Positions 27,239 through 38,734 of a DNA stretch of 64,000 bases are shown piece after piece. The stretch comes from Lamellibrachia columna (lineage: Eukaryota > Annelida > Polychaeta > Sabellida > Siboglinidae). The stretch's first letter is position 1, and the number at the start of each line of letters is the position of its first letter. The position numbers and the translations under genes were made by a program. The stretch is taken from positions 16,035,263-16,099,262 of the forward strand of contig OY759269.1 in assembly GCA_963662155.1 (NCBI GenBank). The letters run 5' to 3'. The notes beneath the pieces were generated by a model. The model did not search any database. It saw nothing but the letters and a program-made list of their open reading frames with translations, and was not told the DNA's origin.

Positions 27239-27430
27239 AGTAGTTCCTTAGTGCATCCCAATGCTTAAGGAAGGGGACCATGTGTTCGCAGGCTATTAAA
27301 CATAGATTTGGGGGAAATCCACGGTGTGAGAGTATAGGGAAAGAGGTATAATATCGCTCACAAGACATCAGCACCCCTGTCGGTGCTCAAGGAGACTTAG
27401 GGGTCAGAGGACATCCTACGTAAGGAGGAG
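27239..27430 (+). repeat. Left terminal inverted repeat of the Polinton-like element
   Basis: Starts AGTAGTTCCTTAGTGCATCC and contains ATGCTTAAGGAAGGGGACCA, ATGTGTTCGCAG, GGTGTGAGAGTA, ATCGCTCACA and AGGGGTCAGAGG. All are found in the same order on the opposite strand at the right end, about 85% alike by eye. Confidence 0.9.
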
Positions 27431-27649
27431 CGGCGGCGGCGGGGGGGGGGGGCGAATAGCGTTCATGAAGAGACATCAAAGGACCTAACAGCATAATTCC
27501 TTAACAGGGATCAAAGGGCCTGACGAGGAAACGAGAAACGAACAAAACACGGTACCGTACAAGTGCACACATATTGTATTGAACAACACAAGCATGATGA
27601 TACAACAAGGGTAGAGTATAATATCACTACGACTACAACTACGACGAGT

Positions 27650-27780
27650 ACGATGATGACGTGACTTGCAAGTGTTGACCACTACGCCAGAGGTCGTGAG
27701 CTTAGGGGTGTCTCCACCTCGCCAGAGGCTCAATGGTGATGATGAAGTGACTTGCGGGTGTTTACCACCACTCCAGACAG
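27650..27780 (-). repeat. 40-bp duplication overlapping the protease 3' end
   Basis: GTGACTTGCAAGTGTTGACCACTACGCCAGAG (27,661) and GTGACTTGCGGGTGTTTACCACCACTCCAGAC (27,748), each preceded by GATGATGA, are two diverged copies 87 bp apart. Confidence 0.75.
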
Positions 27781-28187
27781 TCTATACTGTCGCAGCTGTT
27801 TAAGCCAATCATATACGCGGCAATCGTTAGCTACAAAATCAGTGCCGAATATGTTGATAAAACTTCTCCACGGAAAGCCGTTACAACGAAGCAATAAATA
27901 AGCTACACAATATTGTCCATAAACGTTAAACTGAGGACTCTGAAGTCTCTCTGCTATTATGAGTTCACTCGAAACAATGTTCGTTCGTGAAGGTGCGGAA
28001 CGCCGCGTGTCGTGGCGGCGGCAGTACGAGCGGAAGTAATCGCCGCGTCCATCGGTATCCAGTTACAGCGCTATTCAATGTTTCGTCGACGTTGTCGGTG
28101 TTGCACACGAAGGCGACCGGCAAAGCGTCTATCGTCGAAGTCTTTGGGTACGACACCGCGAAATACCGACCTGGTGCGCGGGTCCAT
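27730..28187 (-). pseudogene. Adenain-like cysteine protease (broken)
   Basis: The start ATG (28,187) lies one base after the capsid stop codon. In successive frames it shows the short N-terminal RGVVPKD, then FVCNTDN (28,070-28,100), then FRTFTNEHCFE (about 27,967-27,997), then VYGQYCVAYLL (27,880-27,912), where Gln and Cys match the catalytic pair of adenovirus-type proteases, and NDCRVYDWLKQ before a stop at 27,730. This order is typical of the maturation proteases of adenoviruses, adintoviruses and Polintons, which process capsid precursors. The catalytic His/Asp region is damaged (the expected H-W motif is not readable). At least two frame changes are needed, so it is a pseudogene. Confidence 0.7.
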
Positions 28188-28188
28188 C

Positions 28189-28437
28189 TCAATAGTCGTA
28201 GATGATGTTGAGGCTCTTGTCTATTTCCAGCACGAAATCGAACTCGGCGTAGGCGATGGCGTTCACAGTGGTCGGCAGCGCGTCACGGAAATGCATCTCG
28301 ATGCGCAGGTTGCCCTTTTGTACCAGATGTAAGCAGGCGCCATCGCACTCGTCGGGGGTCAGGGCAAAATCGAAGAAGGTGTAACCGTGCCGGAAGTCGC
28401 TGCGAGACAGCCCGTTCTCTTCATCCTGCCACACCAC
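28189..28437 (-). pseudogene. Major capsid protein, C-terminal fragment only
   Basis: An 83-residue frame with GYTFFDFALTPD, LVQKGNLRIEMHF, TVNAIAYAEFDFVLEIDK and a final NIIYDY before the stop. This ending matches what I recall of the double-jelly-roll capsid proteins of Polinton-like elements (annotated in animal genomes as F54H12.2-like). Intact proteins are about 500-600 residues. Here everything upstream of 28,437 is replaced by an AT microsatellite, noncoding DNA and a piggyBac-like insert. It sits immediately before the protease. Confidence 0.7.
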
Positions 28438-28502
28438 ACATCGACTGCATCACTTCAAGTCAAGATTTCATAAACAAAAATGTATTTTATGAATAGGAAT
28501 AT

Positions 28503-28588
28503 TATATATATATATATATATATATATATATATATATATATATATATATATATATATATATATATATATATATATATATATATATATT
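28503..28588. repeat. (AT)n microsatellite
   Basis: About 86 bp of AT repeat at the point where the capsid gene is truncated. Confidence 0.95.
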
Positions 28589-28882
28589 CTGAAAGTACGA
28601 TAATCAGCGAGTAAAATGAACCGTATCATTTTACATTTCGTCGTCATGGTAACCAGCAATCCAAGATGGCTGCCACGATTTCAACGTTTTTGCAGTTGGT
28701 GAACGCCGTTGTATGCCAATGTACATATTTAATGTAAACTACTCATGTTGATCATGCTACAGGAGTGTACTATGATATAAAATACAATATAAAGTACATT
28801 TTGTGGAGTATGAGAAAGTGAAAAGCAAGTTATTTATCTGTATTTTAAACATATATGACAGAAGTGTTCATTTGTATATTTG

Positions 28883-36644: not shown

Positions 36645-36659
36645 TTGCGTGCGTTATTA

Positions 36660-36859
36660 TAGTAACCATGGATTGATGCATGCGATGTCCTGAATAAGTG
36701 TGTTTGTAGTTGGTCTGACGTCAGACTCTTGGCCGTCGCACTGCATATGTCGTGGGTGGCCTGCGCCACTGTTAGTGACGTGTCTCTCGTGACGATGTGG
36801 GCCATAGCCTCCTCTAGCTTAAACTTATATTGTTCCACTGTGAATAGTGGCATGGTCAT
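36660..36859 (-). CDS. Small ORF of the Polinton-like element, unknown
   Basis: It begins MTMPLFTVEQYKFKLEEAMA and continues with THDICSATAKSLTSDQLQTH until (TG)n, where the frame becomes Thr-His repeats. About 66 residues are non-repetitive. The predicted character is helical and soluble. The frame opens 36 bp inside a Ser/Pro-coding low-complexity stretch. I do not recognise it. Confidence 0.3.
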
Positions 36860-37240
36860 CGGATATCATGGTTGTGGGGTGACGGCGACGATGACGACGG
36901 GCTGTCGTTGAACCGTGTGTACAATGATGACGACGGGCTGAATAAAGGTGTTGACGATCGAGACTGTGACGGTGGCGACGACGACGAAAGCCGGGATGGT
37001 GAAGTCGGTTGACGGGGTGGTGACGTCAGAGGCGGCGGGGTGGTGACGGACGAGACGGTGACGGCGGCTGCGGTGACTTCGGCGACGACGTAGGCCGAGG
37101 CGGGGGCAACGGTGGTGATGTCACTGATGATGTTGGTGGCGGCTGTGATGTCACCGATGACAGGCGTCGTTTTTTTATTAAGTATAGTTGCAGGTCATTG
37201 TCTGCTAATGACGGCGTGTTGACAGTTCGTATATTTATGT
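36860..37240 (-). other. GC-rich low-complexity region (Pro/Ser/Thr-coding on the - strand)
   Basis: Short GACGACG, GGCGGTGACG and TGATGTC units recur. One - strand frame reads SPPLPPPRPTSSPKSPQPP and continues to a stop. Either a disordered protein region or simple-sequence expansion. No domain is seen. Confidence 0.4.
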
Positions 37241-37507
37241 TTTATGTCATCATTGCCGCCTTCACAGCCGCCGTCTTCTCACCCTCCTCATACGCAGTAC
37301 GTTTGAGGTGTAGTCCGATGCTTATCTATAGAAAGGAAAGAAAGTAAACTGTTTAATGAATGTTATCATCCCTGTCTACGGATAGCCTTTCGCACCTTCC
37401 CCATCATATCGATCCGCCAATGCAATATTCAACGACATAATAGCCCAGCGCAACATGTGTTGGATTAAACCAGATGAAGGTGTGTACACCTAATCTTTCA
37501 ATATATT

Positions 37508-38275
37508 CTATATGCGACACACCTCATCACACACATATCGGACACAGGCCGCATCTAACGCTGCGTCGAAAGACTGTTGATTAAAGAGGGCTTCCGTACG
37601 ATCTTGAATTCTATCTATACCATTCACCGTTGCCTCCATGTCGTCACTGCTGTTGCTATCAGCCTTCTGCATAGCATTATCATCATCATCTTCTGGCTTA
37701 ATTATACAAGATGCAGGAGAGATACTGGACGCTGCAGACGTGAATATGATTTCGTCACTGTTACTATCTAGCCATGTCTGTACTTTACTAATGCTGGAGT
37801 TCGTAGCCTCGTCGGTGGGTACAATGACGTCATCCTGTTTGCCATTGTCTTCCTTCAAAGATAATTACGAATCTACCACTTCCATTTCTGATACGGTGTA
37901 ATTCACATACGTGTCCTTTACACATTTCTTGATGGTGTCCATGACACGTGCCCCCCGGAGCAGGGACAGTGAGACATAACGGTCTGCATCTGATGTCATC
38001 CCGGTGTAGGTGTTGGCATCAAACCCCAATATTTTTGCCGCCAATTGATCGAAAATACATGCCCACATTTCTCCCCTTCTCTGTCGGACAGTAGGACCTG
38101 TACACGGGAACACGCTGCCATTGGTGGATTGAACAATAGTAGCCATTCCCTGTGCTGTTGCTGACGACATGTCGATTGGTCTGGTCACGGATTTGCTGAT
38201 TGTCTTTACTGAAATGGGGAATGCTTTTTTCTCAAGATGGATCATTTGTAAGTATATATCATACTGTATTTTCAT
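37508..38275 (-). pseudogene. Unknown acidic ORF-A of the Polinton-like element (one in-frame stop)
   Basis: A single frame of about 255 codons from ATG 38,275 to 37,508, with one TAA at 37,865-37,867. An internal ATG at 38,170 (MSSATAQGMATIV) is an alternative start. The N-terminal half contains RRGEMWACIFDQLAAKILGF and YVSLSLLRGARVMDTIKKCV and looks globular. The C-terminal half is acidic and Ser-rich (IIKPEDDDD, SNSSDDMEATVNG). It is the first gene inside the right terminal repeat, the place where accessory or integrase genes often sit, but it has no integrase hallmarks (no HHCC finger, no DDE pattern). Function unknown. Confidence 0.5.
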
Positions 38276-38298
38276 AGTTCGAACTGACGGTAACTCTT

Positions 38299-38312
38299 AA
38301 AGATTATATAAC
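38299..38312 (-). promoter_or_regulatory. Possible TATA box ahead of ORF-A
   Basis: On the - strand TTATATAATC lies about 26-35 bp before the first ATG of ORF-A. A real TATA box would put the transcription start very near that ATG, which would favour the internal ATG at 38,170. In AT-rich DNA such a match is not strong evidence. Confidence 0.2.
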
Positions 38313-38489
38313 ATTGAACACTTTTACAATGGCTCTATAGCACATAGTTTCACTTTGACACAGCACTATTAGCAATATAGGATACTTTGACAACTACAAT
38401 ATACTCCTTTTGAAAACGTTTATATTTAGTTTTGTGTTGACTAAAAATGCGTGTGCTACTTTCACACATAACTTTCCTCCTTACACAGA

Positions 38490-38734
38490 ATGACCTCTGA
38501 CCCCTATTACAAGACTCCTTGACCACTCCTTGACCAGTCCTTTAGTCGCGGGGGAGCGCTGATGATGTCCCTCGTGTAGCACTACAGCAGACAGGGTGCG
38601 CTGGTGTCCTGTGAGCGATACTATATCTCTTTCCATTTACTCTCACACCGCGGATTTTCCCAAAAATCTATTTTTAGTAGACTGCGAACACATGGTCCCC
38701 TTCCTTAAGCATAGAGATGCACTAAGGAACTACT
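38490..38734 (-). repeat. Right terminal inverted repeat of the Polinton-like element
   Basis: The reverse complement of the left end: TGGTCCCCTTCCTTAAGCAT, GCGAACACATGG, TACTCTCACACCG, TGTGAGCGATA and CCTCTGACCCC are all present in mirrored order. An extra stretch of about 50-70 bp near 38,530-38,600 (with CTCCTTGACCACTCCTTGACC) is not in the left arm. Confidence 0.9.

Follow-up and report, generated by a model that had tools for sequence, protein, structure and literature searches.

A dead Polinton/adintovirus-type element in the tubeworm Lamellibrachia columna and the RPA-like gene of its lineage

The element and its gene remnants

The DNA analyzed here is a window of 64,000 nucleotides from Lamellibrachia columna (assembly GCA_963662155.1, contig OY759269.1, positions 16,035,263 to 16,099,262 of the forward strand), which contains at 27239..38734 an integrated element of the Polinton/adintovirus type with a decayed set of virus genes, one of them related to the single-stranded DNA (ssDNA)-binding protein RPA. 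A preliminary description made from the sequence had bounded this element by terminal inverted repeats (TIRs). Indeed, the left TIR (27239..27381, plus strand) and the right TIR (38590..38734, minus strand) both begin with AGTAGTTCC, the latter on the minus strand, and they aligned in reverse at 128 of 145 identical columns (88%, E 6e-47), with ungapped arms also visible. A weaker similarity further in, with 41 of 52 positions matching, extends to 27429/38475. As a control, 5-kb stretches taken from the window outside the element were compared in 48 pairs, none of which scored as high as the two ends or reached 178 bits. The best of these pairs scored 170 bits, pointing to another sizeable inverted repeat in the window outside the element. 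TIRs of Polintons start with 5'-AG, and Polintons have a 6-bp target duplication; the window element starts with AGTAGT at each end, as do four other elements of this genome. The body of the element had been described as rich in GC and CpG, and the contrast is real but modest, with a GC content of 0.477 and a CpG observed/expected ratio of 1.16 against 0.401/0.98 and 0.373/0.85 in the flanks.

The gene identities of the window pieces were drawn from relatives in this genome whose reading frames are naturally open; 12 of their proteins were searched singly against the window. All placed gene pieces lie on the minus strand, as had been described. From right to left, the element begins with ORF-A, which is a decayed RPA70 DBD-C-like gene (37856..38296) matched in two frames at 37856-38074 and 38097-38147, its N-terminal half being degraded. 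Next to it are a decayed acidic ORF (37385..37864, match at 37385-37642), which corresponds to a 168-aa ORF after the RPA-like gene in a relative, and the remnant (36660..36811) of a 205-aa ORF located upstream of the polymerase in a relative. The gene for a family B DNA polymerase (PolB) with N-terminal C2H2 fingers (31535..36044) is broken by several stops and frame changes, lacks the stretch equivalent to residues 241-313 of the relative and is interrupted on the same strand by an AT-rich insert of ~440 bp with an (AATCA)n end (32053..32494), which is probably a truncated retroposon. Then follow a broken packaging ATPase gene (30867..31493), a broken small ORF (ORF122, 30478..30823) of 122 aa in a relative, a homologue of ORF273 (29505..30463) with an expanded CTG/poly-Ala run at 29642-29784, the C-terminus of the capsid gene (28192..28449) encoding the last 86 capsid residues, and a broken adenain-like (C5) protease gene (27790..28193). 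Stops and frame changes disrupt the ATPase and protease genes as they do PolB, and the RPA-like gene contains a frame change. At a deletion junction (28435..28440), the integrase gene, a penton-like ORF, ORF139 and ~80% of the capsid gene are gone; neither Pfam on open stretches nor the relative integrase searched against the window gave an integrase match in the element. A frame at 29024-29332, tried as a capsid gene, was matched by none of the 12 relative proteins, and Pfam matches of window stretches to TFIIA (E 1.2e-4) and DDHD (E 7.4e-4) were taken as composition noise.

Relatives in this genome and beyond

The 880-Mb genome is a rich record of the lineage, which was found at no fewer than 114 PolB places (at least 114, scored of 2337 candidates). 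Some frames are still open: in 9 of the 115 rows listed, PolB is open for at least 1,200 codons with no stop in the matched part. Fuller members measure ~17.5 and ~17.8 kb from end to end. Exact 6-bp target duplications (GTCCCC, AGCCTC, GACCAA and CCTAAC) flank all four elements for which both ends were mapped; in one case the end was placed at AGTAGT, a base further in than the BLAST hit. A fifth element (C13:22308260), whose hits begin inside the repeat, was excluded from this count. At C5:33819150-33847581, window-type ends and the exact GACCAA duplication surround a 28-kb stretch, and 62-bp satellite repeats make up no less than 4.3 and 8.2 kb of the two 9.5-kb ends read. The CCTAAC duplication, also exact, flanks a 4.6-kb internally deleted derivative (C13:31672840-31677423), and 14 kb further on lies another right end flanked by this 6-mer, which suggests that the region was duplicated locally.

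Profile searches on the open relatives named the polymerase and the ATPase of the lineage. A relative PolB matched by the window pieces hit PF03175 (E 2.5e-6, 27.1 bits against a cut-off of 25.8), and a relative packaging ATPase matched by the window piece hit Adeno_IVa2 (E 3.1e-5, above the cut-off). C2H2 zinc fingers are fused to the PolB N-terminus in a relative and have left traces in the window at 35841-36044, and Pfam, the search applied to the N-terminal region of the open relative PolB, gave no OTU match. The relative integrase contains rve (E 1.6e-13 and 2.3e-10 in two parts of one relative) with a chromodomain beside it (Chromo, E 7.4e-8), and the lineage possesses a double-jelly-roll capsid protein. 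A lineage without integrase was considered and dropped, as the open relative and the sister copy described below both have one. Through these relatives, the polymerase, ATPase and capsid C-terminus recognized in the preliminary description were borne out, and its adenain-like protease more tentatively.

Capsid relatives also occur outside this genome. Fourteen of the 120 listed (the best 120 of 3370) carry an organism name, comprising 12 from Lamellibrachia satsuma, one from Ridgeia piscesae and one from a bin named as an Escarpia laminata endosymbiont; Lamellibrachia belongs to the Siboglinidae (Annelida), and all three animals are vestimentiferan tubeworms, so that these names point to a vestimentiferan as the probable host. 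The relative from the endosymbiont bin, with 78% identity on an 11.8-kb contig, is probably DNA of the host animal that was sorted into the bin of its symbiont. Another 11 (P0220, P0226, P0229, P0230, P0233, P0235, P0237, P0238, P0240, P0243 and P0244), at 54-59% identity on contigs of ~2-12 kb, one of them from a JGI source, suggest that related elements or viruses are present in environmental samples. The tubeworm literature searched contained no report of these elements, and the relevant passage of PMC8556966 mentions Mavericks in Capitella only.

Sister copy and history of the locus

A sister copy at C9:16538700 onwards matches the window element piecewise at 91-97%. Because the left-flank DNA is also common to both (at 93% where it adjoins the element and, beyond a gap, at 89% as far as window position 21372), the sister, as judged from sequence, is a segmental duplicate and no second insertion. 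At window 28435/28440 the sister runs on for ~4.26 kb, which encode the remaining capsid gene, ORF139, the penton-like ORF and an integrase matching that of the relative (E 9.6e-77). Since this ~4.26 kb is present in the sister and absent here, the gene order read from the window copy, which the preliminary description had suggested might define a lineage, is not the lineage's order. ORF-A in its list is RPA70 DBD-C-like, and the list was incomplete, with the integrase unseen and absent from this copy.

As the sister keeps the missing genes, the deletion is later than the insertion of the element at the locus. Moreover, the PolB insert, present in none of the seven relatives compared, is present in the sister copy; with the insert common to both copies and the deletion confined to the window, the insert preceded the duplication and the deletion followed it. 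The probable order of events is insertion of the element, entry of the retroposon into PolB, duplication of the locus together with its flank and, in the window copy alone, loss of the block from integrase to capsid, with decay throughout. The ends of the window copy (88% identity) are less alike than those of the two fuller relatives (97.4% and 97.8%), which would make it older than they are. The sister also contains RPA-like and PolB matches on its other strand, which suggests that another element of this kind is nested within it.

The RPA-like gene and interpretation of the element

The window copy by itself is an ordinary dead Polinton, and it is the RPA-type gene that sets the lineage apart. 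In the first member analyzed, this gene matched PF08646 with 51.6 bits (cut-off 28.5), and 18 of 18 members matched at E ≤0.01; the window's own fragment scored 16.3, below the cut-off. The protein stands alone with ~160-200 aa, shares 16-23% identity with cellular RPA70 in fold alignments and has a predicted OB-fold with a zinc-ribbon insert, in which the last likely zinc ligand is His. When 114 of 2337 PolB and 150 of 975 RPA-like candidates were scored, 33 PolB loci had an RPA-like neighbor listed, on the same strand in 32 and at a near-constant position in 28. In addition, both of the two elements studied closely carry the gene between ends that are flanked by exact target duplications.

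According to the relevant passages of PMC4028283, Polintons are defined by pPolB, an rve integrase, an ATPase and a protease, most of them also carrying capsid genes, and their usual gene list includes no protein for the single strand displaced by PolB. Inverted ends are common to Polintons and this lineage, whereas the parts of the Polinton descriptions compared mention neither an RPA70 DBD-C-like gene nor a PolB with C2H2 fingers at its N-terminus; PMC11071308, which describes PolB domains, uses none of the terms 'zinc finger', 'C2H2' and 'RPA'. With adintoviruses, all of which have a chromodomain-bearing integrase according to the passage of PMC11071296 concerned, the lineage shares PolB, an rve integrase with a C-terminal chromodomain, a hexon-like capsid protein and an animal genome as its site, and it differs by the RPA-like gene, being placed beside them by this published definition rather than by reference sequences. 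No Polinton with an RPA-like gene was reported in the literature searched, which included the available parts of PMC12220804, PMC4981718, PMC8276246, PMC6431247, PMC11253617 and PMC4028283; an earlier description is possible, since the search did not extend to the paper that founded the adintoviruses or to one review of Polintons.

RPA70 DBD-C (PF08646) belongs to the core through which RPA binds ssDNA and trimerises, and is here found as a stand-alone protein in a mobile element. RPA is one of five groups of OB-fold ssDNA-binding proteins in dsDNA viruses, among which those with protein-primed replication are possible exceptions to the general use of such proteins, and adenovirus DBP has no clear similarity to the OB-fold, as stated in the corresponding passages of PMC8276246. 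The protein of this lineage, with its predicted RPA-type OB-fold, would resemble adenovirus DBP in function only, by serving a protein-primed, strand-displacing PolB. We propose that PolB, primed by a terminal protein, may start DNA copying at both ends and displace one strand, which the RPA70 DBD-C-like protein, predicted to bind ssDNA, would coat. The ATPase would then pack the DNA into a double-jelly-roll capsid, the C5 protease would mature the particle, and the integrase with its rve and chromodomain parts would insert the element, giving the 6-bp target duplication. On balance we lean towards the view that an animal Polinton lineage captured the ssDNA-binding core of cellular RPA and kept it as a stand-alone gene, whose product would coat the displaced strand as adenovirus DBP does with an unrelated fold and so free the element from host RPA. 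With an RPA-type OB-fold protein encoded in a constant position next to PolB, the question of the displaced strand can be tested directly, and the protein may represent a second solution to set against adenovirus DBP.

The TIRs, the decayed gene set, and the genes and target duplications of the relatives agree with the dead, integrated Polinton/adintovirus-like element of the preliminary description. Taken together, it is very probable that a lineage of integrating DNA viruses of the Polinton/adintovirus type with an RPA-like gene is represented in the window by one dead copy, with the mechanism and the locus history proposed above. Several results weigh against this view. Pfam named no PolB, ATPase, capsid or protease on 10 window pieces, nor on 127 of the 134 open stretches of the window (25 of the 27 families seen), so that the profile searches foreseen in the preliminary description named genes in the relatives and not in the window's own pieces; even in a relative, the protease match to PF00770 (E 0.0049) is below the cut-off, and the 306-aa penton-like ORF, without a Pfam match, is named by position only. 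The 6-mer flanking the left end (CGGACC, 27233..27238), a possible target duplication, is identical to that at the right end (CTCACC, 38735..38740) at 4 of 6 positions only. The PolB loci with a listed RPA-like neighbor are 33 of 114, one being the window and some perhaps mutual duplicates. Scans of viral contigs with PolB, the capsid protein, a capsid alignment and an RPA-like alignment confirmed no relative, leaving free virions without support. PHROGs named no virus gene on the window's own pieces, and the PolB piece had no match in a phage collection. In a viral structure library, a single match of the 50 rows listed had E <0.001, and the query TM exceeded 0.44 in none of them, which leaves room for a viral relative.

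The RPA-like gene might instead belong to a separate, older transposon such as a Helitron, standing near PolB in some copies by nested insertion and without any role for the Polinton itself. RPA is carried by Helitrons of plants, cnidarians and fish according to one passage of PMC6431247, on which this proposed origin rests, and 116 of the 150 listed RPA-like matches have no listed PolB within 15 kb. Such missing neighbors are expected, because only 114 of 2337 PolB and 150 of 975 RPA-like candidates were scored, and the shared strand, the near-constant position and the location within duplication-flanked ends argue against a chance neighborhood, making this explanation improbable. We regard it as quite improbable, too, that the window element, instead of being a decayed full copy, represents a non-autonomous derivative under selection for being mobilized in trans: the window copy lacks an integrase, and the 4.6-kb internally deleted derivative has the same type of ends with an exact target duplication, but the sister, which arose by segmental duplication and shares the flank, retains the missing genes, so that the deletion postdates the insertion. 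The presence of an rve integrase with a chromodomain in Gypsy-type elements would allow a different class of element, such as a Ginger/Gypsy-like transposon or a giant-virus fragment sharing some genes by chance. This is hardly credible in view of the joint occurrence of PolB, a packaging ATPase, a double-jelly-roll capsid protein and a C5-like protease within AGTAGT ends with 6-bp duplications.

The host DNA around the element contains further repeats. Just beyond the right end is a MITE-like inverted pair (38810-38849 and 39276-39315) of 40 nt, 90% complementary and 426 nt apart. Long tandem arrays occur at 7576-8550, 19736-20432, 53313-53983 and 60984-61115 (ACCG, a 26-bp unit, AGTG and CGGG).

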